43,969 bases of DNA from a virus. The stretch is from the IMG/VR virus record IMGVR_UViG_3300046451_001604, positions 1 to 43,969 of that record; one strand, written 5' to 3'. The position numbers were made by a program, and so were the translations under genes. This document shows positions 26,627 to 43,969 of this stretch, one piece after another. Position 1 is the first letter of the stretch, and each line of letters begins with the position of its first letter. Below the pieces are notes generated by a model. It worked only from the letters and a program-made list of their open reading frames with translations, was not told where the DNA came from and did not search any database.

Positions 26627-26836
26627 ATGTTACTTTCTCAAATACAGGGCGAAAATAGATACGTTAAGGATTTAGAAACTGGGGCGATACTAAACACTGA
26701 TGTCACAGAAATTAAAAAATCAAAGGCGAGAAAGAAAAAAATGCGAGAAGAAAAAGAAGAAATTCAAATTTTAAAGTCAGAAGTTGCAGATATAAAAACT
26801 CTGCTGTTAGAAATTCACAGAAAGTTAGGTGATTAA
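26627..26836 (+). CDS. Small coiled-coil structural-type protein
   Basis: A 69-residue protein with a short N-terminal YVKDLETGAILNTD motif, a Lys-rich stretch (KKSKARKKKMREEKEE) and a C-terminal heptad-like helix (IQILKSEVADIKTLLLEIHR). It probably oligomerises. It sits between the large gp10-type protein and a fibre gene and overlaps the latter by one base. Function unknown. Confidence 0.6.
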   Translation: MLLSQIQGENRYVKDLETGAILNTDVTEIKKSKARKKKMREEKEEIQILKSEVADIKTLLLEIHRKLGD

Positions 26837-28041
26837 TGGCACGATTACAAAATGTTGATCTTAGCAATTCGGTAAATGCTTGGAGACTGAAAACAAACAT
26901 TACTGCTGGATATATTGGCGACTTAGATGATTTGAATACAAATATAACTAATAGTGTTGTAGGGTCAATAAATTCAATTCAGAGTAAATTTATTATTGGC
27001 GGTGAGGTGCAATCATTGGCAAAAACCGCATTAGCATTATCAACTGGTGGGGCTGGTACTTATGCAAGTTTATCTTATGCCGACTCAGGAGGTATTGGTG
27101 GAGGACTTTTCACATTTACATGTAATCCACTTACCCCAAATGATATTCCTAATTTAGATGCTGGAAAAATTACAACTGGTCAATTTCCATCATCTTTTTT
27201 AACCCAAATGGATGCTGGAAATATAACAACTGGAACATTAAACAGTGCTAGGTTACCTTATTTATCCGCAAATCAAACAACTTCTGACGTATTTCATGTT
27301 GATCGTATCCCAAATCTTTCTGCCACTAAAATAACATCAGGAATTCTTGGTCAAGACAGAATTCCGAATATTCCTTCAAGTAAAGTAATATACGATGGTA
27401 CTAAATTACCACTTTCGGCTATGGACCCTGCCCTTGTTAGAAATAATGTATCCACAATATATACTGGAACTAGACTGTATAATGGTACTAGTACGTTTAT
27501 GAATACAGTTACTGTTGGCAGTCCGGGAGCAACACCAGTTAACTCTACTTTTCATGGTCAAATAGATCATGATGGTAATATTATTCCCAGTACTACCGAT
27601 ATATATCAAATCGGTAGTACTGGATTCAAATATGCTGGTGTATATGCCACTACATTTTTTGGTAATGCCACTTCTGCAAACTTCGCTGACCTTGCGGAGA
27701 AGTATACCACAGATGAAGATTATCCAATAGGAACTGTTATGATGGTTAATTTTGATACTAATGGTGAAACCACAAAATGCGGCACTTCTGGTATTCCAGT
27801 TGGGGTTATCTCAGCAAAACCAGCGTTTTTGATGAACGCTGAAGCGGAAGGACAAGCACTTGCTCTTAAAGGTAGGGTTCCTGTTAGAGTATGTGGTCAA
27901 ATTAGAAAAGGTGAGGCTGTTTATACTTGGAAAAATGGGTGTGGTAGTACAGAATTTAATGGCGCACATATGATTGGAATATCACTTGAGACCAGTGATA
28001 TTGAAGATGAAAAAATGATTGAGTGCGTTCTTAAACTTTAA
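26836..28041 (+). CDS. Tail fibre protein with peptidase-G2-like C-terminal domain
   Basis: A 401-residue protein. The N-terminus (SNSVNAWRLKTNITAGYIGD, LDDLNTNITNSVVGSINSIQ) is related to the fibre after the cassette (EVWRNATNTMAEYVGDPDNL). The middle has repeated fibre turns (ITTGQFPSSFL, ITTGTLNSARLP, ITSGILGQDRIP). The C-terminus (SANFADLAEKYTTDEDYPIG, GVISAKPAFLMN, GRVPVRVCGQIRKGEAVYTW) resembles the peptidase-G2/intramolecular-chaperone domain of phage fibres. Likely a host-recognition fibre. It is the last gene before the accessory cassette. Confidence 0.72.
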   Translation: MARLQNVDLSNSVNAWRLKTNITAGYIGDLDDLNTNITNSVVGSINSIQSKFIIGGEVQSLAKTALALSTGGAGTYASLSYADSGGIGGGLFTFTCNPLTPNDIPNLDAGKITTGQFPSSFLTQMDAGNITTGTLNSARLPYLSANQTTSDVFHVDRIPNLSATKITSGILGQDRIPNIPSSKVIYDGTKLPLSAMDPALVRNNVSTIYTGTRLYNGTSTFMNTVTVGSPGATPVNSTFHGQIDHDGNIIPSTTDIYQIGSTGFKYAGVYATTFFGNATSANFADLAEKYTTDEDYPIGTVMMVNFDTNGETTKCGTSGIPVGVISAKPAFLMNAEAEGQALALKGRVPVRVCGQIRKGEAVYTWKNGCGSTEFNGAHMIGISLETSDIEDEKMIECVLKL

Positions 28042-28049
28042 ATTGTCTA

Positions 28050-28078
28050 TTGACATTCTAAATTATAAGGTTTATAAT
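28050..28078 (+). promoter_or_regulatory. Sigma70-type promoter of the radical-SAM cassette
   Basis: TTGACA (28050-28055), a 17-base spacer, then TATAAT (28073-28078), between a late fibre gene and the first cassette gene. The start codon at 28105 lies 27 bases downstream and AGAGGAT is its ribosome binding site. Same geometry as the gp32 promoter and unlike the TATAAATA late boxes. It implies that host-type polymerase reads the cassette, perhaps earlier than the surrounding late genes. Confidence 0.8.
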
Positions 28079-28104
28079 AACTTTAGTCATTAGAGGATTT
28101 TGTT

Positions 28105-28623
28105 ATGATCACTAAAAGTCAATTCTTGAGTATAATCTCAAGTGATATTGCATATGAGCAAAATATGGTCTATGCCATAGACGAAAATGGTAGAGAACAT
28201 CTCATGAAAAATTTTGCAGATACACTTGCAAATAAAGATACAAATTCAATAAAAATTGAAAGAATGGAAGCATACAACTCGGAAATTTTTTCTTATTGTT
28301 TAGAACTAGAAGATATGTATGAGCATAGTGGTCCAATAACATGTCATTTATTTTATGCTGAAAAAAATACTCATTCATTCAAAAAACATACTGATCCAGA
28401 TAATGTTGTTATATATTGTTGTGAAGGTATGAAAACTATAGCAATGGAAGGTCATACTATGGGCGGTGAACCAGTATTTACTTTGACGGCGGGTACAAGA
28501 TTACATATTCCTGCAAATACTCCACATCAAGCATTTAATGAACATGAAGCAATTACTTTAAGTTTTGGTCTAGAAAAATTTATAGAGGATAAAATAAATA
28601 GTGTTTTGGTCAGTATATCTTAA
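28105..28623 (+). CDS. Cupin-fold protein, possible Fe(II)-dependent oxygenase
   Basis: A 172-residue protein. The C-terminal half is a cupin barrel: HTDPDNVVIYCCEGMKTI, then LTAGTRLHIPANTPHQAFNE. His95 and Asp97 (HTD) with His141 (PHQ) form a plausible 2-His-1-carboxylate metal site, as in Fe(II) oxygenases of the cupin/JmjC type. The N-terminal about 70 residues are not recognised. First gene of the cassette; its end overlaps the radical-SAM gene by 23 bases. A hydroxylase of a peptide side chain is one possibility; a non-catalytic binding cupin is another. Confidence 0.65.
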   Translation: MITKSQFLSIISSDIAYEQNMVYAIDENGREHLMKNFADTLANKDTNSIKIERMEAYNSEIFSYCLELEDMYEHSGPITCHLFYAEKNTHSFKKHTDPDNVVIYCCEGMKTIAMEGHTMGGEPVFTLTAGTRLHIPANTPHQAFNEHEAITLSFGLEKFIEDKINSVLVSIS

Positions 28624-29620
28624 AACCACAGAAACTTGTCAATTAAACTGTAAGCACTGTTTTACTTCTGGTAGCAATGGTGCTAAAATTTATTGGAATA
28701 CTGATAAGATAGTTGATTGGATACATAGATTTCGTGAAGAAAAACCTGCGAAGGGTGATGGTATTCATTTAGAGTTTCATGGCGGCGAACCATTTCTTGT
28801 ACCTGTAGGGCAAATGAGAAAGGTATATGATGCTTGTGATGGTCTTTGGGATAATATGAGTTGGGGTGCAACAACCAATTTAGTGTATAAATTAAAAGAT
28901 CAACATAGAGAATTTATAAAAGGTCCACTTAGAAATAGATTGGGAACTTCATGGGACAGAAAAATAAGATTTGATAATCAAAGACAATATAACTTATGGC
29001 ATAAAAATGTCAAGTCTCTTTTAGCAGATGGTGTAACTATACGTTTGTTTATTAGTCTTACTAAAGATACTTTAGAAAAAGACCCTATTGTATTATTGAG
29101 ATGGTGTAGAAGATTAGGGGTTCAAGAGGTATCTTTAGAGAGATTGACTAATAATGGTTCAGCGCGTGAAGCATCAGAAATATTTCCATCAAATAAAGAG
29201 TTAGATGCTTATTTTTTGAAAATGCATCAACAAAGTGAAGAATATGGGGCGCGAGAATGGTTTGAAAATGATTTTTTTGAAAATATATATGCTAAATTTG
29301 AGAAAACTCTTACGACATGTGGTACTTTTTGTAGAGATTGTGAAACAAAACTATTCACAATAAACGGTGATGGTACAATAAGTGGTTGTCCAAATTCAGC
29401 ACCAGAATTTCAGTTCGGAACTTTAGATGATTCCATTAAAACTCTTATAAATAGTCCTAGAAGAATAAGAACTATTATTGAAGAAAAGATGAGAAACCCC
29501 AATTGTCTCTCTTGTCCTGTTGCAAAATATTGCGGTGGTGATTGTCACCAATTAGGATGGGAAGGTGATGTATGTGGCGCACCTAAAAGTTTAATGATGG
29601 AATTGGCAAAGAATGTCTAG
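28601..29620 (+). CDS. Radical-SAM protein with SPASM-like domain (rSAM 1)
   Basis: A 339-residue protein. The [4Fe-4S] SAM motif is CQLNCKHC (Cys13, Cys17, Cys20), and EFHGGEPFLV is the GGE SAM-binding motif. The C-terminus has many cysteines (CGTFCRDC, GTISGCPNS, CLSCPVAKYCGGDCHQ), typical of SPASM auxiliary cluster domains of peptide-modifying enzymes. The start is GTG at 28601, inside the cupin gene, with AGAGGAT upstream. It lies directly before the Cys-His-tailed protein, which makes that protein the prime substrate candidate. Confidence 0.85.
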   Translation: MFWSVYLKTTETCQLNCKHCFTSGSNGAKIYWNTDKIVDWIHRFREEKPAKGDGIHLEFHGGEPFLVPVGQMRKVYDACDGLWDNMSWGATTNLVYKLKDQHREFIKGPLRNRLGTSWDRKIRFDNQRQYNLWHKNVKSLLADGVTIRLFISLTKDTLEKDPIVLLRWCRRLGVQEVSLERLTNNGSAREASEIFPSNKELDAYFLKMHQQSEEYGAREWFENDFFENIYAKFEKTLTTCGTFCRDCETKLFTINGDGTISGCPNSAPEFQFGTLDDSIKTLINSPRRIRTIIEEKMRNPNCLSCPVAKYCGGDCHQLGWEGDVCGAPKSLMMELAKNV

Positions 29621-29630
29621 GAGATAAAGA

Positions 29631-30500
29631 ATGACGATATCAGACCCTATTACAGAAAATCCTGTAGTTACAAAATACAGACAGTTTGTGACTGATAGAA
29701 TTAATAATCAAATCGTGTATGGAGATGATAATTTACCAAAGCGAAGTATGGCTTCGTTTTTTAATGGAACAACAGATGGAATTGTATCGAATCCTGATCT
29801 TTTTGATGGGCCAATTGATGCTGCAAATATATTTGCTATTCTTTTGAATGATGTTAACAAATATACTAGAGTTAGAAGATTTAACGCGAATATTACAGTT
29901 ACTGGTGGTTCACCTACTGGTAATACACCTATTCCAGCCGTAAATACTTCTGCGAATAATGCCGCAAATTTAGAAAAAGCGTTCGCTTGTGAGTGGGTTA
30001 CGACAGTGAATTCAGGAATTAAAACAGTTCCTATTGGTACAACAGGGCCATGGGATAATAAATCTTGGGCTAATGATTTTTATGCAAAACACAATACTTT
30101 AGGTATCCAAGATTATGATGCTATTCAAATCGCACTAGACTCATCTGGATCATTTATCTCAGCGGTAGCACATAGTGATGTTGGAAATGCTTGCATAAAA
30201 GCAACACAAAAATATGCTGTGACAATCAAAATCCCTGCACTGGTGGGGAGCAGTAAATCATATAATGATATTGGTATTCTGACAGCAAAACATTCATTTG
30301 AAATTGATTCGGCAGATGTTGATCACTCTATGATTGTCCAAGGAGATGTTATGGATGACGCCGACTTTGAACAATTATTCAATAATCTTTATACAGCATG
30401 GGAGACTGTTGCACTGGGTTCCTCACCAATTAATTATAAAGAAGTAGTTTGTCATGCAAATTGTCATGCAAGTTGCCATTCATCAAGAAATAGGAGATAA
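29631..30500 (+). CDS. Protein with C-terminal Cys-His repeat tail; candidate modified substrate
   Basis: A 289-residue protein. The N-terminal about 260 residues look like a folded, beta-rich, fibre- or virion-like protein (SDPITENPVVTKYRQFVTD, ITVTGGSPTGNTPIPAVNT). The last 18 residues are VVCHANCHASCHSSRNRR: three CH dipeptides at exact four-residue spacing (Cys274, 278, 282), then a Ser/Arg end. Only one or two cysteines occur elsewhere. AGGAGATAAA just before the ATG gives strong translation. Being embedded among radical-SAM and oxygenase genes, the tail resembles a RiPP core. Function inferred; metal binding by the unmodified tail is an alternative. Confidence 0.7.
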   Translation: MTISDPITENPVVTKYRQFVTDRINNQIVYGDDNLPKRSMASFFNGTTDGIVSNPDLFDGPIDAANIFAILLNDVNKYTRVRRFNANITVTGGSPTGNTPIPAVNTSANNAANLEKAFACEWVTTVNSGIKTVPIGTTGPWDNKSWANDFYAKHNTLGIQDYDAIQIALDSSGSFISAVAHSDVGNACIKATQKYAVTIKIPALVGSSKSYNDIGILTAKHSFEIDSADVDHSMIVQGDVMDDADFEQLFNNLYTAWETVALGSSPINYKEVVCHANCHASCHSSRNRR

Positions 30501-30507
30501 TTTTATT

Positions 30508-31161
30508 ATGAGTAATCATGTTACAGTGACTGCACCATTGGGTATTGACGATTTGCAGAAATATTTTTCTGATGACAGTATTAATTTTATTATTGACTAT
30601 GAAAATAGTGAGTTACAAGGCGAGAAATTACTTGTATATTTAAGTAACTTAGAGTTACCTTGTGATATTAAAACTGAAGGAAAGGATTTAGAGAACCTTG
30701 CGAAAATTTATCTTCAGTTTCCACAAATATTAAATATTAAAGTTTTAGAAGAATTTATTCTTGAGGTTCTTTTGGTAAGAAAAAACCTATCTTTAGAGTG
30801 TTTAGGTTGCTATCAAGATTTTATTAATGATAATGAAGAAGTGATTGATATTTGGATTAAAAAATTGGATTCATTGACACTCTATAATATGTATATTATC
30901 CAAGATGATGAAATGAAAGATTGGGTATTATCGTATAAAGAAGATGATACAGATGATATAAAGGGTATAAATTTCGTATCTTTGTTGAAACATGAAGATT
31001 TTTATTATTACTATAACGGTTTAGATGAAAAAAACTTGACCTATTATTCAAAATATTTTAATGAATATATGTTTAACGGAAAGAGTTTATTTGATTATTG
31101 GTCTTATAAAAAAAATCCACTTTTCTTATTGACTTGGGGAGTTGGCGCAGGAGAAGTTTAA
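30508..31161 (+). CDS. Cassette protein, unknown function
   Basis: A 217-residue acidic, helix-rich protein (DDLQKYFSDDSINFIIDYEN, LEEFILEVLLVRKNLSLECL). ATG 30508 was chosen because AGGAGA, encoded in the last codons of the preceding gene, is correctly spaced. An ATG at 30454 in the same frame would overlap the Cys-His tail codons. It ends LLTWGVGAGEV. No domain recognised. It sits between the candidate substrate and the second radical-SAM gene, so it could be a partner or recognition protein. Confidence 0.6.
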   Translation: MSNHVTVTAPLGIDDLQKYFSDDSINFIIDYENSELQGEKLLVYLSNLELPCDIKTEGKDLENLAKIYLQFPQILNIKVLEEFILEVLLVRKNLSLECLGCYQDFINDNEEVIDIWIKKLDSLTLYNMYIIQDDEMKDWVLSYKEDDTDDIKGINFVSLLKHEDFYYYYNGLDEKNLTYYSKYFNEYMFNGKSLFDYWSYKKNPLFLLTWGVGAGEV

Positions 31162-32202
31162 TTGGATTTAGTAGATTTTATTTTAAGAGATAAGAGAGAC
31201 AAACAACAAGAATACACAATTCATTTATTTGAATTTTGTAATCTGTCTTGTCCATTTTGCTGGCAAGACCACGACAACATTGTGGGTATTGATACGGTAT
31301 TAGACAAGTTGGAATCAATAGAAAAGTTTTTTCAAAAAGAGATGCGGAAACATGTAGTTTTAAACATCATGGGTGGTGAAATTTTTGCCGATGAGATTTT
31401 TGATGAAAAACTAAAAAATGATTATATTTCTCTTGCACAAGGCATAACAGACTTAGGAAAAAAATATAAGTTTGAGAGCATAGGTATTAATTGGGTTACT
31501 AACCTTGTAATTAGTAAAAGAGACTATGTGCGCGATCTATTGAAGGCGTGTAGAGATATGGGGTGCAAATCCAAACTCGTAACTTCATATGACCCTAGAG
31601 GTAGATTTAACAAACCAAACTTAGAGATTTTCAAAGAAAATGTATATGATTTCTGGGATGATTTAGAAGGCATAGGAGTCCTTCTTACTAAATCAAATAT
31701 CAAATATTGGTTAAGTGATCCAAAAGATTTTATGCACGAATTATATCATAAGGGTGTTAAAGTTTATGCTGATTACTACATGCCTGATTGTCAGGCAGAA
31801 AGAAGTATGCCGACAGACAAAGAGCATTATGATATTTTCACGCATTTTATAGATAAGTATCCTAAAATTGAGCCTATTCGTTCTTGGATAGAAAATGAGC
31901 GTAATGTTGTTTCATGCAGATCATCTAAATTAGTTCTTGAGGATGGAACCATGTGTTTGTGTGGAAATCTTGTTCAAGAGCCAAGAGATAAAGCGATGTA
32001 CAAAACAGACATACAGAAGGCTAATAACAAACCTATTGAAAAGGCTTTCCTTGAAAAGTATAATTGCTCTACTTGTGAATATTTTCATAGATGTACTCTT
32101 GGGTGTTTCATGGCACATGATTATAAATATGCAGAAGAGGTTTTTGATGAATGTGTCTATAAAATGACACATAGATACATTGAAAATAAAGGATTAAGAT
32201 GA
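31162..32202 (+). CDS. Radical-SAM protein with Cys-rich C-terminus (rSAM 2)
   Basis: A 346-residue protein. The cluster motif is CNLSCPFC (Cys26, Cys30, Cys33) and NIMGGEIFAD is the GGE motif. The C-terminal part has VSCRSSKLVLEDGTMCLCGN and CSTCEYFHRCTLGC, a SPASM-like auxiliary cluster region. The start is TTG, directly after the previous stop; GGAGAAG seven bases upstream supports it. Probably a peptide- or protein-modifying radical-SAM enzyme. Confidence 0.8.
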   Translation: MDLVDFILRDKRDKQQEYTIHLFEFCNLSCPFCWQDHDNIVGIDTVLDKLESIEKFFQKEMRKHVVLNIMGGEIFADEIFDEKLKNDYISLAQGITDLGKKYKFESIGINWVTNLVISKRDYVRDLLKACRDMGCKSKLVTSYDPRGRFNKPNLEIFKENVYDFWDDLEGIGVLLTKSNIKYWLSDPKDFMHELYHKGVKVYADYYMPDCQAERSMPTDKEHYDIFTHFIDKYPKIEPIRSWIENERNVVSCRSSKLVLEDGTMCLCGNLVQEPRDKAMYKTDIQKANNKPIEKAFLEKYNCSTCEYFHRCTLGCFMAHDYKYAEEVFDECVYKMTHRYIENKGLR

Positions 32203-32203
32203 G

Positions 32204-32839
32204 ATGTTTTTTTATAAAAATGGCGATAAATCTCCAATTAGCCAATCCTTTATAAATAGATTTCCAACAAGAAAAAGATTAACTAATCCAATTAAAGAAA
32301 TTGATATAGAGTATAATGTATGCCATACAGTATTTGATTATTTAGTTGATACTAAATTACCACCATGCATTCATTTTTTAGATAATTTTTTGAGAAGTGA
32401 AGTGTACGTGTTTAGTGTTCCACTATCAAGTAATTTATTATCTAAAGTTAATAGTAAATCTATGATGGAAGATTATACTACTCAATTTACTGGATCACCC
32501 AAAACAGTAGTAAATAATGATTATGAGTTAGGATGGATTGGCATAGAGAAAACTAAAAATTATACAATAATGTCAAATATTCAAATAAATGGAATTTATA
32601 GAGATTGCTTAACCAGAAGGCAAGAAATAGATTTTTATAAAACTATGATCAAGTTTTGTAAAGGTGAAATATTGAATATGCCAATTTATGTGCCTACAGC
32701 CGAAACACTATACACACAAATGAAAAAAAACCCTGCACATCCTGATAGTGCTATAATGGAAACACCTTACACATCTAAGGTTTTAAAGGGGTTCACAAAG
32801 ATACAATTTATGAATATGGAGTTTTATAAAAATGATTAA
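32204..32839 (+). CDS. Cassette protein, unknown function
   Basis: A 211-residue soluble protein starting MFFYKNGDKSPISQSF, with KLPPCIHFLDNFLRSEVYVF and YELGWIGIEKTKNYTIMSNI. No domain recognised. A TATAAATA string at 32251-32258 lies within its coding sequence and is probably chance. It overlaps the next radical-SAM gene by eight bases. Confidence 0.6.
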   Translation: MFFYKNGDKSPISQSFINRFPTRKRLTNPIKEIDIEYNVCHTVFDYLVDTKLPPCIHFLDNFLRSEVYVFSVPLSSNLLSKVNSKSMMEDYTTQFTGSPKTVVNNDYELGWIGIEKTKNYTIMSNIQINGIYRDCLTRRQEIDFYKTMIKFCKGEILNMPIYVPTAETLYTQMKKNPAHPDSAIMETPYTSKVLKGFTKIQFMNMEFYKND

Positions 32840-34499
32840 AGTAGGTTATGTGAATCCAACAGGAATACCCTCAAGAGCAGAATTTAACTATCATTGGATG
32901 CTTTTTAAATGTTTTTATGAAGATTATGGAAAATATCCAGAAAAAGTTACTTGGGTGGAGCCAATATTCAAATGGAATGAAGTTACAATACAAGATTGTT
33001 TGGATAATGTTAAAGGGTGTTCCATTGTATTTTTTACCAACTATGTTTGGAATTATAAAATTAACCAAAGGATACGAAATGGTCTTGATCCAGATACCAT
33101 AGTAGTTATGGGTGGGCCTCAACAAGACCCTGATATAATAAAAGATTATGACTATGTTGCAGACCCTCTTGCTCCAGGAGAAATATTTGTACAATACTTT
33201 CTTGATATGTATCTAGAGGATTCTGTTGATAAGAAAAAGATTCCATTTTATTTGGGTAGTTCTTTAAAAATTCCTCTTCCATTTGGACATACGAATGTAT
33301 ATAGGAGGTGTGAAGATTATTTTACCAAAGAATATGAACACTTCATAAAAAATATAGACCTATATGAGCGAATAACATTGATATATGAAAGCACTAGAGG
33401 ATGCCCATTTAAGTGTTCTTATTGCGAGTGGGGTGGTGGTACTGGCACAAAGGTTTTAAAAAAACCTATGAATATCATAAAAGATGAAATGGAATTTATA
33501 GGGGGCTTTAAGGGTGTGCATATCGATTTGTGTGATGCTAATACAGGAATGTTTAAAGAACGCGACAGAGAAATGATGATGCACATGGTAAATAATGGAG
33601 TTCAAATTGGTGAAAATCTATCGGTATTAAAAACTTTAAAATTGGAGCAGAAAAAAGAAATGCTTGATTTTATGATTGAGCATGATATTACTCGCCAAGT
33701 CATCAGTATTAGTTTACAGTCTATTTCAGAAGAAGCGAGAAGAATAGCAAATAGAAGAGACCTTAATGTTGAAGAAACCTATGAATTGGTAGATCATTTA
33801 ACTAGTAAATGGAATAATTTTAAAGAAAAAGAATTATGGTTAGATTTAGAATTAATTTTAGCAATGCCAGGGTCTACATTAAAAGATTTTTACGAAGAAT
33901 TTAAAGTATATTATAGAGTTGGATATAATGAAGGAAAGGATTGGGAAGAATGGAAAGGTCTTGATGTATGGGCAGACACTAGATATCCTTATATGGTTTT
34001 ACCAGCAACTGAAACTGCTAGTAAAGAATATCAAGAAAAATATAAAATAAAAACATCAAAGGTACTGACACAATTTGATGGCAACTATAGTGGAAAATGG
34101 GATGATGTTGAAGTAAATCCAATATATGGTGATGTGTCATACGAATATGATACTATAGTTGAATGTTTTTCATATACGTTTGAAGAATATTTAGAAATGT
34201 TCATAATGAATTTATTCACACCACATGTGGGTTTAAGTTTTATAAAAGAATATACCAATTATGAAAACGTGAGTGAAGTGGCAAAAGAGTTGTGGAATAT
34301 ATTGAACGATATACCAATGTTTTTTGTTTACAAAGAACTGATAAGAAATATATTTCTTGATAATAATTCTCATAGTATAGATAAGTTTGAAGTGGGTAGT
34401 TTTAAAGGCAAAGATATTGTAAATGAAATGAAACTCTTACTAGATAAGAATGAAGAAATGGTAAAGGAAAGATTAGATGAATTCTGTAGAAATTTATGA
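32832..34499 (+). CDS. Cobalamin-binding-type radical-SAM protein (rSAM 3)
   Basis: A 555-residue protein. Residues about 1-140 look like a B12-binding Rossmann domain (GCSIVFFTNYVWNYKINQ, DTIVVMGGPQQDP, YDYVADPLAPGEIFVQYF). The DxHxxG base-off histidine motif is not seen. The radical-SAM cluster motif is CPFKCSYC (Cys191, Cys195, Cys198) after LIYESTRG, with HIDLCDANTGMFKERDRE typical of the family. B12-radical-SAM enzymes often methylate unactivated carbons. The substrate is unknown; the cassette suggests a protein or peptide. Confidence 0.82.
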   Translation: MIKVGYVNPTGIPSRAEFNYHWMLFKCFYEDYGKYPEKVTWVEPIFKWNEVTIQDCLDNVKGCSIVFFTNYVWNYKINQRIRNGLDPDTIVVMGGPQQDPDIIKDYDYVADPLAPGEIFVQYFLDMYLEDSVDKKKIPFYLGSSLKIPLPFGHTNVYRRCEDYFTKEYEHFIKNIDLYERITLIYESTRGCPFKCSYCEWGGGTGTKVLKKPMNIIKDEMEFIGGFKGVHIDLCDANTGMFKERDREMMMHMVNNGVQIGENLSVLKTLKLEQKKEMLDFMIEHDITRQVISISLQSISEEARRIANRRDLNVEETYELVDHLTSKWNNFKEKELWLDLELILAMPGSTLKDFYEEFKVYYRVGYNEGKDWEEWKGLDVWADTRYPYMVLPATETASKEYQEKYKIKTSKVLTQFDGNYSGKWDDVEVNPIYGDVSYEYDTIVECFSYTFEEYLEMFIMNLFTPHVGLSFIKEYTNYENVSEVAKELWNILNDIPMFFVYKELIRNIFLDNNSHSIDKFEVGSFKGKDIVNEMKLLLDKNEEMVKERLDEFCRNL

Positions 34500-35007
34500 C
34501 GATTTTTTGAATCAAGAACAAATTAATGATATACGAAATATGTTTTCTTTTGATAAGTCGGCAATGGATGATCTTCCAAGATTTAATATGCAAAAAAATA
34601 TGGCAATAAATATTAAAAATCATATGGACGATTTTCCAAATTTAAATAAAGCAAAAACTATTGCATTATGTAAAGATTCAAATATAGGTAAAATTGCTAT
34701 ATCACATTTAATTAAGATTGTCAAGTATGAAGAAGATAATAATGAAAATATGATTTGGGAACCACATCATGATGGAACAGAGTCTAAAATCATTACTTTA
34801 TTTTTTATAGATATAGATGATAATGGTTGGCAAGGTGGTGAGTTAGATATTTATGATTCTCTTGATATTTTTCAATATCCAAAAAATAAGACTAGAATAC
34901 AACCAAAAGTGGGTAGGTTAGTAGTTTTTAATAGTTCTATGGTACATTGTATTAGACCTTATTTTGGCTCTAAACCAAGAATGACTGTAAGTGTGGGTTG
35001 GGAATAA
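34477..35007 (+). CDS. Fe(II)/2-oxoglutarate oxygenase, prolyl-hydroxylase-like
   Basis: A 176-residue protein. The pattern EIYDDFLNQEQINDIRNMF, EPHHDGTESKIITLFFIDID, GGELDIY, VGRLVVFNSSMVHCIRPYFG, PRMTVSVGW is the classic 2OG-Fe(II) oxygenase barrel. Fe ligands are His97, Asp99 (HxD) and His157; Arg168 would bind 2-oxoglutarate. It likely hydroxylates a peptide or small molecule. The gene starts inside the end of the B12-radical-SAM gene with AAAGGAAAG upstream. Confidence 0.85.
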   Translation: MNSVEIYDDFLNQEQINDIRNMFSFDKSAMDDLPRFNMQKNMAINIKNHMDDFPNLNKAKTIALCKDSNIGKIAISHLIKIVKYEEDNNENMIWEPHHDGTESKIITLFFIDIDDNGWQGGELDIYDSLDIFQYPKNKTRIQPKVGRLVVFNSSMVHCIRPYFGSKPRMTVSVGWE

Positions 35008-35008
35008 A

Positions 35009-35563
35009 ATGAATATTGATAAAAATTCTGGATGCTTTATTGAGAACAATCCCGATATGTTTATTCATATAAAAGATACGTTACCAAAATTAAAATGGTT
35101 ATACTTAAAGAGAAGCGATTCAAAAAAATCTGATAGATGGCAAAGTGTGGCATGGAATTATTATTTTCACTCTATGAGAAGTAAGATGTTAAAAACTGCC
35201 GATTTACTTTGGGAAACATACTTACCGTGGGAGACCGAAAAGAACTTGGATTATTATACTATGTGGAATGGGACTGACACTGGTTCGTGTGAGTGGCATC
35301 ATGATACTGAAGGTGGTAACTTACAATTTAATTTGTATTTTACAGACTCAGAACCGAATAATGGTGGTGAGATAATGTACAGAAATATGAAAGAAAATAA
35401 TAGAATAACTACTTTTCATCTACCTAAAAAATACGATATAGTAATGGGAAGTGTAGGTGATGATTTAAAGTTCCAGCATAGAGTTGAGCATACAAGAGAA
35501 TTGAAGCAAGAAAGAATAACAATGCTTTTTAGATTTAAAGTAAAGGAATCTCCATGGAAATAA
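35009..35563 (+). CDS. 2OG-Fe(II) oxygenase-like protein, tandem copy A
   Basis: A 184-residue protein. EWHHDTEGGNLQFNLYFTD, NNGGEIMYRN and FQHRVEH, QERITMLFRF indicate a 2OG oxygenase core: His97, Asp99, His157 and Arg169. It is clearly paralogous to the next gene. ATG 35009 was chosen over an upstream start at 34991 because it follows the stop of the preceding gene and aligns with the paralogue's start. It overlaps copy B by ten bases. Confidence 0.78.
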   Translation: MNIDKNSGCFIENNPDMFIHIKDTLPKLKWLYLKRSDSKKSDRWQSVAWNYYFHSMRSKMLKTADLLWETYLPWETEKNLDYYTMWNGTDTGSCEWHHDTEGGNLQFNLYFTDSEPNNGGEIMYRNMKENNRITTFHLPKKYDIVMGSVGDDLKFQHRVEHTRELKQERITMLFRFKVKESPWK

Positions 35564-36138
35564 AAGACCAAGGATACGTTATGGAAAATAATAAAAATAT
35601 GTTTATTCATATTGATGATACCATTCCAAGATTAAAATGGTTAAGTATGAGTAGTGATAATATTCCAAAAATAAAATGGTTAAATGAGGGTGATGATTGT
35701 AAAAGTTATAGCATCTGTTGGAATTATCATTTGAATGGTATGCGAAATAAGATAAAGAAAACTGCTGATTTATTGTATGAGACATATCTATCAAAGTATG
35801 ACAATTGTTATGAGAACAAAAAATTAATATATTCATATATTTGGAATGGAGCATGTGATGGTTCTAGTTCTTGGCATAATGATTTAAAAGAAGGTGCAAA
35901 TGTTTTCTTTTTATTATATTTTACTGATATGGAACAAGGAGTCGGCGGCGAAATAATGTTCCGAAATATGACCCAAAATAAAAAAGTCACTTGTTATCAC
36001 TTACCAAAAAAATATGATCTTATATTAGGTAGCCAAGATTTAAATTTTCAACATAGAGTTGAGGATTTTAGAAAACCTAACGTGCAAAGAATCACAATGA
36101 ATTTCGGATTTAATATAAAGAATTCTCCATGGACTTAA
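35554..36138 (+). CDS. 2OG-Fe(II) oxygenase-like protein, tandem copy B
   Basis: A 194-residue paralogue of copy A. Shared blocks are ENNxxMFIHIxDTxPxLKWL, KTADLLxETYL, GGEIMxRNMxxN, HLPKKYDxxxGS and FQHRVE. The site is His108, Asp110 (HND), His167 and Arg179. It starts in the TCTCCATGG junction at the end of copy A and ends with the same junction at the start of the next gene, so the duplication carried the overlap with it. AAAGGAA is the ribosome binding site. Confidence 0.78.
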   Translation: MEIKDQGYVMENNKNMFIHIDDTIPRLKWLSMSSDNIPKIKWLNEGDDCKSYSICWNYHLNGMRNKIKKTADLLYETYLSKYDNCYENKKLIYSYIWNGACDGSSSWHNDLKEGANVFFLLYFTDMEQGVGGEIMFRNMTQNKKVTCYHLPKKYDLILGSQDLNFQHRVEDFRKPNVQRITMNFGFNIKNSPWT

Positions 36139-37163
36139 TTATTAAACCAACAGAATTATGCAATTTTAAATGCACATTTTGTTCTTCATCTAAAATTACT
36201 CAAGAGGATAATACTGCTGTACTTGATTTGAATAAGATATTCAAATTTCTTAAAAGATTTCCTGAAACGCAAACTATTATCGTAAATGGTGGTGATCCTT
36301 TAATGATGAAACCCAATTACTATTGGAAGTTAATAGAGTTTTTAGATAAGCATGACATGCCAGCGACGATATCCCTTACAACTAATTTGTATCCTTTTTT
36401 AATGAAACCAAAAAAATGGGTAGAACTCTTTAATCATAATAGAATTGGTGTTGGAACTTCATTTCAGTATGGTGGGGGTAGACTTAAAGGTGATTACAGC
36501 GAATTTACCGAAGAAGATTTTTGGAAGTGTTCTGATGCGATGCTTGAGCATGTGGGGTATAGACCTTCGTTTATTGCAGTGATTGTGGATGAAAATGAAG
36601 ATACTGTAATACAGACTGTAGAACTTGCTAAGAAGATGGATGTTGTTTGTAAGGTGAATTATGCTATGGCATCTGGTTCTCAATCTGCGCCATATAGACT
36701 TTCAAAAATATATGAAAGATATATTCAAATTTGGAAAGCAGGTTTAAGTGATTGGGAACATAACACTCAACAAATGTTAAATAGGTTAAGAAAAAAGCCA
36801 ACTATATGTCCTCAGTCCAGAAATTGCGATAGCGGTATTCGTAATATTCAACCAGAGGGTGATTATTATTCTTGTGGGGCTTTTGGTGATGATCTTGACA
36901 AACCAATAGATTTTGAATATGAAATGAATGGAGGTTTTGAAACACCTCTCAGTAATGATTTGAGTTTAATGAGTCTTAAAAATTCATGTTTTACTTGTCC
37001 TATGTTTGAAATTTGTAACGGATGCCGTAAAACAATTAAAGACTTGAAACAACATAACATGGTTGAAGATCATTGTAAACATATGAAATCTATGGCAAAA
37101 GACATAATTTCTTTAAATAGAATGGACACTAAAGTTACTGAATATGTAAGAGAATATGCATGA
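36129..37163 (+). CDS. Radical-SAM protein with SPASM-like domain (rSAM 4)
   Basis: A 344-residue protein. The motif CNFKCTFC (Cys11, Cys15, Cys18) follows MDLIIKPTEL; IVNGGDPLMM is the GGE-equivalent, with Asp for Glu. C-terminal cysteines ICPQSRNCDSGI, GDYYSCGAFG, CFTCPMFEICNGCRK, EDHCKHM fit a SPASM domain. It overlaps copy B by ten bases and the next radical-SAM gene by four (ATGA), so translation is coupled. Confidence 0.83.
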   Translation: MDLIIKPTELCNFKCTFCSSSKITQEDNTAVLDLNKIFKFLKRFPETQTIIVNGGDPLMMKPNYYWKLIEFLDKHDMPATISLTTNLYPFLMKPKKWVELFNHNRIGVGTSFQYGGGRLKGDYSEFTEEDFWKCSDAMLEHVGYRPSFIAVIVDENEDTVIQTVELAKKMDVVCKVNYAMASGSQSAPYRLSKIYERYIQIWKAGLSDWEHNTQQMLNRLRKKPTICPQSRNCDSGIRNIQPEGDYYSCGAFGDDLDKPIDFEYEMNGGFETPLSNDLSLMSLKNSCFTCPMFEICNGCRKTIKDLKQHNMVEDHCKHMKSMAKDIISLNRMDTKVTEYVREYA

Positions 37164-38089
37164 TTGTATCTGTAAATCCATCTTATTTTTGTAATTTCCG
37201 CTGTGATTTTTGTTATCTTACTTCAAAACAATTAGGCGATCAGAAAAAAATTTCAATTGAGAGACTTGATGAATTACTTTCACAAATTCCAGATATAGAG
37301 CATGTTGATCTATATGGCGGTGAAATTGGTGCTATGAAAAAAAATTATTTTTATGATGTTAAAAATACAATTAAAAAGTATTATGATGGAAAAATAAATA
37401 TCAACACAAATTATTCCATGATGCACGATGGTTTCTTTGATGATGACGTTTATTTATCAGTTTCTTATGATTTTGAAGCAAGAGAGAAATCAGATTTAGT
37501 GTTTCAAAATATGATGATGAGTACAGTGCCTCTCGCAGTTCTTATTCTTGCATCACCACAAGTTTTGAGTATGAATGTAAGTAAGATGATAAAACTATTG
37601 AATATGTGTGGTGCTGTTAAATCAGTAGAAATTAAGCCATATTCTATTAATCAAGCAAATGCGTTTACTGTGACGCATTTGGATTTTGAAAACTTTGTTA
37701 TTCAATGGATGGAACTAGAAGATCAGATGAATTTTCAGTTTGTAAATGGAGATAAGATAGAGGAGTCTTTTAATGGACTATACAATGCATTTTCGGATGA
37801 TCATGTTTACATTACTCCTAACGGCAAGTTTGGAGTACTGGAGTTTGATGTACATGATAGAGAATACTTTCACGAATTGGATTCTTTCCAATCTTATATA
37901 GAATGGACAGAAAAAGAAAAAGAAGAAATGATAAGTCCGATTTGCACTTCATGCAAATATTTTGGTAATTGTTTAACAGAACATTACCGATATGTCAAGG
38001 ATTTAGATAATGGGTGTAACGGATATAAAGGACTATTGGATTGGTATGAAAAAATGGAGAACAGCATCCCAAGTTTATCACTTACTTAA
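37160..38089 (+). CDS. Radical-SAM protein with short Cys-rich C-terminus (rSAM 5)
   Basis: A 309-residue protein. CNFRCDFC (Cys11, Cys15, Cys18) and VDLYGGEIGAM are the radical-SAM motifs. The C-terminus CTSCKYFGNCLTEHY and DNGCNGYKGL has fewer cysteines than a full SPASM domain, closer to a twitch-type domain. It is related in size and layout to rSAM 4 and starts in its stop codon. Substrate unknown. Confidence 0.8.
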   Translation: MIVSVNPSYFCNFRCDFCYLTSKQLGDQKKISIERLDELLSQIPDIEHVDLYGGEIGAMKKNYFYDVKNTIKKYYDGKININTNYSMMHDGFFDDDVYLSVSYDFEAREKSDLVFQNMMMSTVPLAVLILASPQVLSMNVSKMIKLLNMCGAVKSVEIKPYSINQANAFTVTHLDFENFVIQWMELEDQMNFQFVNGDKIEESFNGLYNAFSDDHVYITPNGKFGVLEFDVHDREYFHELDSFQSYIEWTEKEKEEMISPICTSCKYFGNCLTEHYRYVKDLDNGCNGYKGLLDWYEKMENSIPSLSLT

Positions 38090-38456
38090 TAGAGAGTATT
38101 CAGATGACTTGAATAAAATGGATGTGACATGGAGTGAAGAAAATATAGTTAGAGATGCTGTTTTGCATTTCAATGAATATGTTGATGAAACTATTAGACC
38201 AGCGAAATCATATTTTGTTGCTATATGTTATGCACATTGGTTATCTGAAGATTTCAATGAAGATTTCTTTGAATTACTAAATGATAAATACTTACTGGCA
38301 GAGAATGATCCACATTTTATTCAATATAATTTAGACATTGATACTTATGATCAAATATTGAAAAATATAGAATTTCCTTTAGAAATGATAGGAATGGTTC
38401 CAGATGTTAGAAAATATTATGAGGATGAGTTTAAACTAGCACTAAAAACCTTATAA
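38046..38456 (+). CDS. Cassette protein, unknown function (last gene)
   Basis: A 136-residue helical acidic protein (WSEENIVRDAVLHFNEYVDE, KSYFVAICYAHWLSEDFNED). It overlaps the end of rSAM 5 by 44 bases. ATG 38046 is the best internal start; an ATG at 38010 in the same frame is possible, and no strong ribosome binding site decides between them. Its end merges with a late promoter box. No domain recognised. Confidence 0.55.
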   Translation: MKKWRTASQVYHLLNREYSDDLNKMDVTWSEENIVRDAVLHFNEYVDETIRPAKSYFVAICYAHWLSEDFNEDFFELLNDKYLLAENDPHFIQYNLDIDTYDQILKNIEFPLEMIGMVPDVRKYYEDEFKLALKTL

Positions 38457-38495: not shown

Positions 38496-39827
38496 ATGAC
38501 TAGAAAAATTACAGTAAAATTAACAGATACAATAGAAGTTTGGCGCAACGCGACAAATACTATGGCCGAATATGTCGGTGATCCTGATAATCTTAATACT
38601 ACAAACAAAAACGATTTGGTTCAAGCAATTAATGAAATTGCAAGTGCCTCAACAGTGGTTGGATTCACAAGTGCATTAAGTATGATTAATACTGGGAATG
38701 GTAATCACACCCAACTAACCTACGATTCGGGCAGTGGTCAGTTTTCATTCAATTCAAATTCTATTGGTCCAACACATTTGGCTCCATTACCTGCAACTGT
38801 TATTACCAGTGGAGTATTTCCACAATCACGTATTCCAACTCTAACTACAACAAGTGTGACTAGTGGTGTTTTTGCAGCAGCACGAATTCCACCTATTCCA
38901 CAACTAAGTGGTTCGCTTGCACCCGGACAGGTTGGTTTTGCGACACAAGATGTTCCAGAAAGTCCTTCTGCGCTTTATTATACCGATGCTAGAGCGAGGG
39001 CGGCAATTTCTACTGATAGTAATTTATTTATGGATTCTAGCGGAAAATTAGGTATCGAGTTATCACCTGCGACATTAGCATCAATAGCGGCTTTTGAAGG
39101 TCTGGCAGGCACTGGTGTTACTATAGGTACTCTTGATTCAATTTCTATTGGTCAAGATATTGGAGTAACGAACAGCCCAACTTTTGTAGGAGTTACTGCT
39201 AGTAGTGTAACAACTAGTACTTTAAATTGTACTGGTGCAGCATCATTTACTGGAACTGTAAGTGCCACTGCGATTGGTGGAGGAATAGTTGCAAGTGATG
39301 CTGTAGCAGACGCTGGTACTGCAAATGATGTGGCTATAACTCCTGCTCAACTTGCAAGACAACTTTCATCCAATAAAACAATAATCTTTAGAAGTACTTA
39401 TACTAGCCTGAATTCATTTACTGGCACAGTGCAAATACCTCTTCCTATCTCATGGTCTGTTCATCCAACGCATGTAAGCCAAGGGGGGTACAATCCTCAA
39501 GGCGATCATGGACTTCCAGACTTTGTTACTTATCGGATTCGTAGAAATGGTGGCACTGCATCAGATCAAGGTGGTTACCTTTCTGGTGATATGATAGACA
39601 TATATCCAAATAATACAGCAGACACAAGTGGTAATGGCACGGCATTTAGAGCGGAAATCACTGGGCAAGCATCAGGATTGGATTATGGGGGGTTTAGGGT
39701 ATCAGTGGCAAACGATGGTCCGGGATATGCTTTAGGCGTAGGCAATAACTCCAATTATTTCAAAATTGACAATAGCAGATGGGATTTACAAATAATAGCA
39801 ATCAGATTTGGTGAGGGTGTCGCTTGA
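38496..39827 (+). CDS. Tail fibre protein
   Basis: A 443-residue protein. The N-terminus DTIEVWRNATNTMAEYVGDP, DNLNTTNKNDLVQAINEI is related to the fibre at 26836. The middle has ITSGVFPQSRIP, VTSGVFAAARIP turns and the ALYYTDARARAAI motif common in phage fibres. The C-terminus is a beta-rich Gly/Asn-rich domain, perhaps a receptor-binding tip. It is the first gene after the cassette behind a late box. Confidence 0.72.
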   Translation: MTRKITVKLTDTIEVWRNATNTMAEYVGDPDNLNTTNKNDLVQAINEIASASTVVGFTSALSMINTGNGNHTQLTYDSGSGQFSFNSNSIGPTHLAPLPATVITSGVFPQSRIPTLTTTSVTSGVFAAARIPPIPQLSGSLAPGQVGFATQDVPESPSALYYTDARARAAISTDSNLFMDSSGKLGIELSPATLASIAAFEGLAGTGVTIGTLDSISIGQDIGVTNSPTFVGVTASSVTTSTLNCTGAASFTGTVSATAIGGGIVASDAVADAGTANDVAITPAQLARQLSSNKTIIFRSTYTSLNSFTGTVQIPLPISWSVHPTHVSQGGYNPQGDHGLPDFVTYRIRRNGGTASDQGGYLSGDMIDIYPNNTADTSGNGTAFRAEITGQASGLDYGGFRVSVANDGPGYALGVGNNSNYFKIDNSRWDLQIIAIRFGEGVA

Positions 39828-43179: not shown

Positions 43180-43969
43180 ATGCCAGCAACTATAAGAATA
43201 AAACGATCATCAAATGTTGATACCCCATCAAATCTTAAAGTAGGTGAAATAGCATATTCATATGCAAATACATCTAAAAAACTTTTCATTGGTATAGGTC
43301 CAGAAGTAAATATTAATGGTGATGCCACTAGAATTGCCACGATTGGTGGTGAATATTTTACAACACTATTTCCAGATACTCCTGGAATAGCACAAGATGG
43401 TAAATTAGTATTACTAGATGATGATCGTGGATTAGATTATATAAAACTCCAAAGTCTTGTTGGCGATTCTGGTAGTTTTAATAACCTAAGTGTTGACAGT
43501 GCATATATTCGTTTTTTCAATGCAGACAGTGCGGTTATAAAGGGGCTTATTTCTGATTCCGCGCACATTACATTTTTGGAGGCAGACAGTGCCTATATTC
43601 ATGATCTTCGTGTTGATAGTGCTTATATACGTCATTTTGACATGGATAGTGGACACATTGATAATGTTTCTATTGATTCTGCTTACATCAAATATATGGA
43701 TGTTGATAGTGGTCATGTTGATAATCTAACTGTAGATAGCGCGTATATTAAATATGCTGATATTGATAGTGGACACATTGATAATGTAACTATTGATAGC
43801 GCATACATTAAATATATGGATGTTGACAGTGGACACATTGATAATGTAACTATTGACTCAGCGTATATTAAATATGCTGATATTGACAGTGGGCATATTG
43901 ATAATGTAACTATTGATTCTGCTTACATCAAATATATGGATGTTGACAGTGGGCATATTGATAATGTAA
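43180..43969 (+). CDS. Decapeptide-repeat fibre protein (incomplete, runs off the window)
   Basis: At least 263 residues, open to the window end. The N-terminus MPATIRIKRSSNVDTPSNLK, VGEIAYSYANTSKKLFIGIG is the attachment module common in T4-like phage fibres. From 43492 to the end there are 16 decapeptide units with the pattern xDSxxIxxxx (VDSAYIRFFN, IDSGHIDNVT, IDSAYIKYMD). Later units alternate AYIKY and GHIDN types. Such regular units suggest a beta-solenoid shaft. The C-terminal receptor-binding part lies outside the window. Confidence 0.82.
   Translation, partial: MPATIRIKRSSNVDTPSNLKVGEIAYSYANTSKKLFIGIGPEVNINGDATRIATIGGEYFTTLFPDTPGIAQDGKLVLLDDDRGLDYIKLQSLVGDSGSFNNLSVDSAYIRFFNADSAVIKGLISDSAHITFLEADSAYIHDLRVDSAYIRHFDMDSGHIDNVSIDSAYIKYMDVDSGHVDNLTVDSAYIKYADIDSGHIDNVTIDSAYIKYMDVDSGHIDNVTIDSAYIKYADIDSGHIDNVTIDSAYIKYMDVDSGHIDNV
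43492..43969 (+). repeat. 30/60-base coding repeats in the fibre gene
   Basis: Sixteen 30-base units, arranged late as 60-base pairs (AYIKYMD/GHIDNVT). Synonymous codons vary between copies (GCATACATT, GCGTATATT, GCTTACATC), while the protein stays nearly constant. The array continues past the window end. Confidence 0.9.

Follow-up and report, generated by a model that had tools for sequence, protein, structure and literature searches.

Why should a virus carry five radical S-adenosylmethionine (radical-SAM) proteins and four oxygenase-like proteins between two of its fibre genes? The question is raised by the IMG/VR virus record IMGVR_UViG_3300046451_001604, which was analysed over its full 43,969 bases (the window). 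Its structural genes are T4-like; the product of 16845-18662, for example, matches baseplate wedge proteins from T4-like phages, marine ones among them. At 28105-38456, on the + strand, lie 13 mostly overlapping open reading frames (ORFs) flanked by two related fibre genes. They encode the five radical-SAM proteins (one of the cobalamin type), a JmjC-type cupin, three oxygenases of the 2-oxoglutarate (2OG) type, three proteins of no known family and a protein of 289 amino acids (aa) that ends in a Cys-His tail, here called the tail protein. The sequences compared below make it fairly likely that these genes form a dedicated maturation cassette, the enzymes of which would covalently modify the tail of a fibre-associated contact protein. 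The tail would thus be the substrate of the cassette enzymes and the tail protein a partner of the fibre.

An invariant tail linked to the cassette genes

Four adjacent features of the window are central to this proposal:

28601..29620, + strand: rSAM1, SPASM radical-SAM enzyme immediately 5' of the tail protein (TIGR04085 above cutoff)
29631..30500, + strand: tail protein, the proposed substrate, 289 aa (alignments of 6, 102 and 98 sequences; AlphaFold)
30450..30497, + strand: C-terminal tail CHANCHASCHSSRNRR, of the form CH-x2-CH-x2-CH-x2-R-x-RR (recurrence in rSAM1 and helper A loci)
30508..31161, + strand: helper A (PHROG 20767), without recognised enzyme family (tail linkage; AlphaFold)

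The initial annotation of this DNA had suggested that the cassette may yield a chemically modified virion or adhesin protein and had named the 29631-30500 product as a candidate substrate. Comparison with relatives strengthens this choice: the 16-residue tail is the constant part of the protein and tracks rSAM1 and helper A in all sufficiently long loci of the rSAM1 and helper A scans. It is laid out as three CH-x-S/N repeats followed by R-x-RR. All nine C/H/R positions of the tail are fixed in 53 non-redundant proteins of rSAM1 loci, in which mean majority identity is 0.88 over the 16 tail columns vs 0.53 over the other 174 well-filled columns; 43 of the 53 have no Cys outside the tail. Tail protein length varies from 124 to 364 aa across the non-redundant set. 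The codons of the tail Cys and His vary synonymously (TGT 306/TGC 243 and CAT 296/CAC 253, in a set selected by the motif) and selection therefore acts on the peptide. PHROG 35144 matches the last 56 residues of the window protein, through the end of the model (E 6.5e-5).

IMG/VR was scanned with rSAM1, helper A and rSAM4, another radical-SAM enzyme of the cassette, keeping 80 of 361, 153 and 323 relatives, respectively; a scan with the DNA pattern of the tail gave at least 119 stretches. The four viral scans overlap in many contigs and do not count as independent samples. An ORF ending exactly in CH-x2-CH-x2-CH-x2-R-x-RR is present in 74 of the 80 rSAM1 loci, and the other six contigs end 0-302 nucleotides (nt) past rSAM1. 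Over the rSAM1 loci, the window and five phage loci, this C-terminal end is found in 80 of 1,955 ORFs of at least 100 codons, one per locus reaching far enough. The tail is present in all 80 helper A loci, ending between 46 nt inside and 25 nt before the helper match, and in 58 of the 80 rSAM4 loci. The pattern itself stands at the C-terminus of an ORF in 119/119 listed stretches, 113 of which carry a cassette radical-SAM gene. Among the six that do not, L117, L185 and L196 are only 1.1-3.0 kb long, L113 and L160 stop soon after the tail, and L191 extends past helper A to 1.65 kb beyond the tail.

In the 57 rSAM1 loci that extend 7 kb or more past the tail, gene content was counted over the span from 4 kb upstream to 12 kb downstream of it. 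Helper A and rSAM1 are found in all 57, rSAM2 and rSAM5 in 56 each, the cupin and rSAM4 in 55 each and helper B in 46, followed by the fibre (51), 2OG type 2 (50), the cobalamin enzyme (35), a further 2OG type (31), 2OG type 1 (25) and the 211-aa protein (5). These counts define a core, namely cupin, rSAM1, tail protein, helper A, rSAM2, rSAM4 and rSAM5, and a set of tailoring genes that changes from locus to locus. Pairwise-distance correlations between cassette genes, fibre included, range from 0.34 to 0.88 (52 loci of related phages); they fit joint inheritance and we draw no conclusion from them.

Gene content of the window cassette

The other genes of the cassette and the two flanking fibre genes are the following:

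26836..28041, + strand: upstream fibre gene with C-terminal ADLAEKY...GRVPVRV domain (PHROG tail fibre E 1.3e-12)
28105..28623, + strand: JmjC/cupin oxygenase, MINA53/ROX-like, HxD...H (PF08007 above cutoff)
31162..32202, + strand: rSAM2, radical SAM with SPASM-like C-terminal cysteines (PHROG 1802 E 5e-41)
32204..32839, + strand: 211-aa accessory protein of no known family (recognised in 5/57 loci)
32832..34499, + strand: cobalamin-type radical-SAM methyltransferase-like enzyme (KedN5 model, TokK and CysS matches)
34477..35007, + strand: 2OG-Fe(II) oxygenase (PF13640 33.1 bits, cutoff 27)
34991..35563, + strand: 2OG-Fe(II) oxygenase-like, tandem copy 1 (PF13640 20.3 bits, below cutoff 27)
35554..36138, + strand: 2OG-Fe(II) oxygenase-like, tandem copy 2 (50% identity to copy 1; no Pfam match)
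36129..37163, + strand: rSAM4, radical SAM with SPASM-like C-terminal cysteines (PF04055 41.4 bits)
37160..38089, + strand: rSAM5, radical SAM with one C-terminal Cys cluster (PF04055 32.2 bits)
38046..38456, + strand: helper B (PHROG 20737; present in 46/57 loci)
38496..39827, + strand: downstream fibre gene, related to 26836-28041 (PHROG tail fibre E 7.4e-5)

The layout described in the initial annotation, 13 same-strand and mostly overlapping genes between two related fibre genes, was recovered in full, with all 13 ORFs on the + strand. Its five radical-SAM proteins all have CxxxCxxC, PF04055 being above the Pfam cutoff in 32832, 36129 and 37160 and present below it in 28601 and 31162; the one assigned to the cobalamin type, 32832, does match cobalamin radical-SAM methyltransferases, below the cutoff of the named model. 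The four proteins called cupin- or 2OG-like also hold, 28105 and 34477 by a Pfam match above cutoff, 34991 by one below it and 35554 through its 50% identity to 34991. The three proteins left without a family (listed ORFs 30454, 32204 and 38010) and the Cys-His protein, with its tail at 30450-30497, complete the set. Judging from relatives, helper A more likely starts at 30508 than at the listed ORF start 30454, and helper B at 38046 rather than 38010.

Recurrence in named phages

Searches of 50,697 phage records by tblastn with rSAM1, helper A and rSAM4 returned the identical seven records each time. They represent six jumbo phages with versions of the cassette: Atu_ph07 (two records), Phosso, SURPRISE13, FLC6, FLC8 and pPa_SNUABM_DT01. 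With the tail protein as query, at E 0.1, only two of these were found, and only through the C-terminal 45-55 residues. The whole tail proteins of five of the phages are 21-29% identical to that of the window; their tails are FCHSSCHASCHNSRSRR, YCHTSCHASCHSSRSRR, VCHSSCHTSCHGSRGRR, ICHTSCHTSCHSARGRR and VCHSSCHTSCHGSRGRR, and the window tail is VCHANCHASCHSSRNRR. The gene order cupin, rSAM1, tail protein is kept in 5/5 annotated phage neighbourhoods (five of the six phages). Helper A comes next after the tail protein in Atu_ph07, Phosso and DT01, and one gene lies between them in SURPRISE13 and FLC6. A gene annotated as virion structural precedes the cupin, immediately in SURPRISE13 and with one gene in between in FLC6. 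In Atu_ph07 and Phosso an upstream gene has the same C-terminal domain as the window fibre. The scan with cassette models recognised no cobalamin enzyme in the SURPRISE13 and FLC6 cassettes. Two genes annotated as dihydrofolate reductase lie within the cassette of these Burkholderia phages (L003 18406-19583, L005 18319-19532).

According to the part of the report available to us, Atu_ph07 is near the Rak2-like phages and has homologues of 16 T4 core proteins (PMC6102473). FLC6 belongs to Chiangmaivirus, Chimalliviridae. RSL2 and RSF1, of the same genus, are called phiKZ-related in the accessible text of PMC5468394, and the FLC6 cassette enzymes are stated to resemble RSF1 proteins (PMC8066314, consulted in part).

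Radical-SAM enzymes and oxygenases

The CxxxCxxC motif is kept in 85/85 rSAM1, 71/71 rSAM2, 63/63 rSAM4, 59/59 rSAM5 and 37/37 cobalamin-enzyme ORFs (one ORF per locus, none touching a stretch end). PHROG 1802 takes in rSAM1, rSAM2, rSAM4 and rSAM5. The SPASM model TIGR04085 is passed by rSAM1 (35.7 bits, cutoff 27), in which the aligned SPASM cysteines read CX10GX4C...CX2CX5CX3C...C; rSAM2 reaches 15.8 bits, below that cutoff, and the model is not among the best 25 NCBIfam matches listed for rSAM4 and rSAM5. Identity to aligned phage relatives is 39-50% for rSAM1 (five relatives) and 55-64% for rSAM4 (four). The closest named NCBIfam models, all far below cutoff, are peptide maturases: TIGR04083, PapB and DynA for rSAM1, and DynA for rSAM4 (E 2.9e-15, 56 bits against a cutoff of 450). 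PDB profile matches of rSAM1 are anaerobic sulfatase maturase and the radical-SAM proteins 8vpo, 5wgg and 9gm3.

The cobalamin-type protein, 32832-34499, matches the KedN5 model NF033712 (E 1.2e-23, 83.2 bits, below the cutoff of 700) and, in a profile search of PDB, TokK (7kdx, E 4e-14, residues 40-355) and CysS. It is also matched by the candidate-defence model PDC-M51A (E 1.3e-11), which we read as a shared superfamily. In phage loci L275, L276, L278, L279 and L304, as well as in L285 and L290, where the tail is out of view, four or more additional radical-SAM paralogues follow one another on the strand that does not carry rSAM1 and rSAM4; wherever it is in view in such clusters, the tail is on the same strand as the paralogues and upstream of them.

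The cupin (28105) scores 25.1 bits against JmjC_2, PF08007 (cutoff 22), over the short stretch of residues 125-157, and PF08007 is found at E 0.001 or better in 39/39 family members scanned. H95, D97 and H141 are invariant in the 39 sequences, and the triad pattern occurs in 83/83 cupin ORFs. The cupin profile matches the human histidyl-hydroxylase MINA53 (2xdv, E 4.9e-7) over profile positions 24-136 of 159; a quercetin dioxygenase scores above it (E 2.3e-9), but over 34 positions only. A MINA53/PF08007-like cupin would suit this tail, whose three His and three Arg are fixed. In the tandem 2OG pair (34991-36138), H108, D110 and H167 (copy 2 numbering) are invariant in nine sequences, and the pair looks as if each copy had its own target residue or repeat in the tail. 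The oxygenase motif was counted in 26/28 OG1, 52/53 OG2 and 3/35 OGx proteins, the poor OGx count perhaps reflecting a spacing limit.

Predicted structures of the tail protein and helper A

AlphaFold predicts the front part of the window tail protein as a mostly confident fold (predicted local distance difference test, pLDDT, 83.7; predicted template modelling score, pTM, 0.66), with a mean of 52 over the last nine residues. The protein has no NCBIfam family at E 1 and no PDB match at E 0.001 or better in Foldseek, and the best E value in a sequence-profile search of PDB is 0.028. In BFVD, two small phage proteins of 178 and 173 aa match its structure below E 0.001, and a 296-aa Atu_ph07 protein, of the same length as the Atu_ph07 tail protein, does so at E 8e-3. 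Weak likeness to the predicted fold was also noticed in three BFVD proteins of 504-660 aa from Myoviridae sp. ctijX18 (A0A8S5USJ8, A0A8S5USV2 and A0A8S5USJ7; E 8e-3 to 5e-2, Foldseek probability 0.94-1.00). Two likenesses that came up in the VIA comparison, the best-scoring one to the helical hairpins of type III tip proteins (residues ~99-202, all Z below 5) and another to a baseplate/receptor-binding chain of phage Milano (residues 1-266, Z 3.4), are not read as homology.

Helper A is predicted to be a well-folded protein (pLDDT 91.1, pTM 0.85) without close known structure: the sequence-profile search of PDB gave nothing, Foldseek gave no PDB match at E 0.001 or better, and its best structural relative in the VIA comparison, at Z 3.5, is not read as homology. 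It may be a dedicated partner of the tail.

Tandem tail genes of about 125-140 aa each occur in L213, L217 and L222, where they are directly 3' of a very large fibre-like ORF, and in several viral stretches (e.g. L086 and L160). This suggests two-chain contact proteins.

Fibre neighbourhood

The two fibre genes that flank the window cassette are related at their N-termini (BLASTP E 4e-17, 29% identity), and the ADLAEKY...GRVPVRV domain of the upstream one is common to cassette-side fibres in other phages. With a fibre model built from 26836-28041 and two phage fibres, a relative starting within 6 kb upstream on the same strand was found in 54/57 loci. Taken with the Peptidase_S74 (S74) fibre gene near the cassette in 6/9 Bdellovibrionota genomes (below), this supports the link to fibres or adhesins expected in the initial annotation. 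The arrangement is not due to chance, as cassette and tail recur together in named phages, viral contigs and bacterial genomes. A fibre gene followed by the gene of a tip protein is also the order of gp37-gp38 in some T4-like phages, so that a tip role would be natural for the tail protein.

Bacteria of predatory families

The tail pattern was further searched in genome_contigs, which holds one genome per species for 84,980 species. It gave 19 stretches: in 16 the pattern closes an ORF of 67 codons or more, in one it closes an ORF of 29 codons, and in two it is not at an ORF end. Cassette genes are present in 15 of the 16 stretches with the tail at a real ORF end. The only one without cassette genes in view is L214, where the tail gene at the contig end is followed by what resembles, by eye, a prepilin peptidase gene, and some 1.6 kb away lies a prepilin-like ORF. 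Nine of the 16 come from the phylum Bdellovibrionota, eight by the family in the record title and L221 by a draw from the phylum. This draw of 290 genomes has the tail in eight, all of them already among the hits, and the reversed pattern in none. A Rhodobacteraceae bin contributes three contigs with a giant fibre-like ORF and two tandem tail genes, and these look like phage.

Of five Bdellovibrionota copies read over 20 kb, those of L226 and L228 lie near genes that look by eye like those of ribosomal protein S20 and cytochrome oxidase, so that at least these two appear chromosomal. An S74 protein is encoded near the cassette in 6/9 Bdellovibrionota genomes, and the other three contigs are 5.7, 10.9 and 11.6 kb long. 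A prepilin signal (PF07963) starts the S74 proteins above the Pfam cutoff in L227 and L323 and below it in L327. We read these copies as a second setting, in which the cassette would accompany a fibre used against other bacteria. S74, the chaperone/protease domain of phage fibres, is also carried by 13 of the 21 MAT proteins of Bdellovibrio bacteriovorus, some of which were seen on the predator surface, according to the available portion of PMC10769870. A conserved protein of ~199 aa is encoded together with the S74 fibre and the cassette in L226, L227, L228, L229, L323 and L327; five of these proteins were scanned without a Pfam match. By eye, homology to the C-terminal domain of the phage fibre seemed likely; hhalign did not support it (probability 17%, in another register), and it is not claimed.

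Proposed mechanism and alternatives

The tail protein would be made as a folded, variable body with a fixed 16-residue tail, which helper A and helper B might present or hold. rSAM1 and the other SPASM-type enzymes could introduce cross-links, or C-C, C-S or C-N bonds, at Cys, His or Ser of the tail (the exact bonds being a guess), possibly by linking a Cys or His to the backbone or to side chains close by. The JmjC-type cupin of the phages and the 2OG enzymes of many loci might hydroxylate the tail, most plausibly at His or Arg, and the cobalamin enzyme, where present, might add methyl groups. No protease or exporter was recognised in the cassette of the window (13 proteins, three without a known family; the scan of relatives used cassette models alone), and the modified tail would accordingly stay attached. 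It would be displayed with the fibre and touch the envelope of host or prey, perhaps in a receptor role. We consider it slightly short of an even chance that this describes a covalent contact tip common to distant phage lineages (marine T4-like, Rak2-like jumbo and phiKZ-related) and to bacteria of predatory families, with a CHxS-CHxS-CHxS-RxRR tail that would be cross-linked, hydroxylated, sometimes methylated and shown with the attachment fibre.

Several results weigh against a modified tail. None of the radical-SAM proteins passes a named maturase subfamily model, among the best 25 matches listed. Of the 80 rSAM4 loci, 22 have the tail out of view; 21 of these run to an end of their contig, L285 being the exception. 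Neither an adhesin fold of the tail protein nor a peptide-binding fold of helper A is shown, both being without a convincing PDB match. The tail of L214 (3108-5408 of a 5.4-kb contig) has no helper A downstream and no cassette enzyme in view. The cupin, which is the best clue to the chemistry, has no match to its model in all nine Bdellovibrionota loci; the system of these bacteria works without a cupin or with an unrecognised substitute, and the cupin is not essential everywhere, which slightly lowers our confidence. Finally, a tail so rich in Cys and His could bind metal without being modified.

This last point leads to an explanation that we find improbable, in which the tail would be an unmodified metal-binding tip and the enzymes would act on the fibre, a glycan or a surface lipid instead. 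Repeated CH pairs are good metal ligands, and fibre tips with histidine-bound iron are known, such as the HxH iron sites of T4 gp37. However, in the operon the tail gene stands between rSAM1 and helper A, which it accompanies in 74/80 and 80/80 loci. Radical-SAM/SPASM and MINA-type enzymes are known mainly for acting on peptides and proteins, and no window enzyme matches a nucleotide, lipid or glycan family above the Pfam or NCBIfam cutoff (for three radical-SAM proteins, among the best 25 NCBIfam matches listed); it was a match to such a pathway that the initial annotation had named as refuting its proposal. It also seems unlikely that the locus makes a true ribosomally synthesized and post-translationally modified peptide (RiPP), whose tail would be cleaved and released as a small effector that acts on competitors or inside the infected cell, with the closeness to fibres reflecting only a variable island. 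The variable front and invariant C-terminal core of the tail protein do resemble leader and core, and the location is a variable island in pelagimyophages, as far as the part of PMC7029224 at hand goes, but the fold predicted for the front part of the window protein has mostly good confidence, fibres remain the neighbours in distant phages and bacterial genomes alike, and no protease or exporter was recognised in the window, within the scope given above.

Help for host metabolism at low oxygen is proposed as the role of clusters of five radical-SAM genes in Campylobacter phages CP220 and CPt10 in the accessible part of PMC2853527, and the present genes might by analogy do the same. We hold this to be very improbable: the CP220 cluster has genes annotated as amidinotransferase and nucleotide-diphospho-sugar transferase and no CH tail in the 49 kb read, and these other companions and the missing tail mark a different system, whereas the present cassette has a fixed peptide as candidate target and recurs at fibres. 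Equally little credit is due to a defence or counter-defence function of viperin-like radical-SAM genes. The PADLOC pVip models match four of the radical-SAM proteins (E 6e-8 to 5e-7; 10 of the 13 proteins scanned), but only over 56-84 residues around CxxxCxxC; the NCBIfam viperin model is far below cutoff, and at E 0.01 neither the tail protein nor helper A is hit by a defence model.

Comparison with known systems

A maturation cassette for a protein tail would have a close parallel in SPASM RiPP maturation (PapB of ranthipeptides, DynA of dynobactin and similar), where SPASM-type radical-SAM enzymes also lie beside a ribosomally made protein with a short conserved Cys/His-rich end; a further feature of RiPP clusters, an adjacent precursor with a conserved core and a variable remainder, is present here. 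The cassette differs in its five radical-SAM, JmjC and 2OG enzymes, its whole-protein target, its fibre setting and the lack of a recognised protease or exporter. The tail repeats can also be read as His-Xaa-Ser, which recalls the His-Xaa-Ser system (HxsA/B/C/D) with its two radical-SAM genes. Membership in that system is rejected: HxsB gives 33.5 bits with rSAM1 against a cutoff of 370, HxsC 32.2 with rSAM4 against 267.9, and the tail protein has no NCBIfam match. With the ribosomal oxygenases MINA53, NO66 and YcfD (PF08007), the targets of which are ribosomal proteins, the cupin shares the PF08007 signature, the HxD...H triad and the MINA53 match; it is, however, a small single-domain protein of 172 aa, and its proposed target is a phage protein tail. 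The product of 32832-34499 aligns with the cobalamin C-methyltransferases KedN5 (model), TokK (40-355) and CysS, but it stays at 83 bits against the KedN5 cutoff of 700 and is not recognised in 22/57 loci.

The fibre-like proteins near the cassette in predator-family genomes share the S74 domain with 13 of the 21 MAT fibre proteins of Bdellovibrio bacteriovorus (PMC10769870, in part). In contrast, some cassette neighbours begin with a prepilin signal (PF07963), and the word 'pilin' is absent from the MAT main text (PMC10769870); the available portion of that paper describes no covalent modification of MAT proteins besides S74 self-cleavage. The CP220/CPt10 cluster, likewise an interchangeable block of a virulent phage with five radical-SAM genes (PMC2853527, partial text), lacks the CH tail in the stretch read and has other companions. 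Partial texts of the FLC6 and S13 (SURPRISE13) papers name the enzymes without interpreting them (PMC8066314, PMC11898562); for S13 the receptor is given as flagella and the receptor-binding proteins are left to be identified. Radical-SAM genes are listed for RP12/RP31 in the section of PMC5468394 at hand. Radical-SAM cassettes, perhaps of the present kind, are placed inside the host recognition cluster of pelagimyophages in the consulted part of PMC7029224, and the term 'radical SAM' is absent from an overview of jumbo phages (PMC7824862).

Among the titles and beginnings of abstracts listed in searches of the open-access literature, none describes the system. The enzyme superfamilies are known and the logic is RiPP-like, but we know of no system with this target, setting and gene set. 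Virion attachment proteins are usually seen as bare folded polypeptides. If the proposed maturation is true, the nine enzymes of the window would give a particle, or a predator, a chemistry at the prey surface beyond the twenty amino acids, and this would be, to our knowledge, the first maturation system of such complexity for a virion contact protein. The investment of several radical-SAM enzymes and oxygenases in 16 residues, in a widespread cassette, would imply unusual chemistry at the contact of phages with other cells and, as a separate case, at that of bacteria of predatory families. This would bear on host recognition by marine T4-like and jumbo phages and might yield new peptide chemistry; the peptide-modification field would also gain two unnamed protein families, helper A and helper B.

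Other observations in the window

Two further ORFs of the window deserve mention. The structural ORF at 12312-14243 has one segment that resembles, by eye, an N-acetylmuramoyl-L-alanine amidase. At 43180-43968, a fibre-like ORF that leaves the end of the window contains near-perfect repeats of ~20 residues (IDSAYIKYxDxDSGHIDNVT), possibly a receptor-binding stalk.

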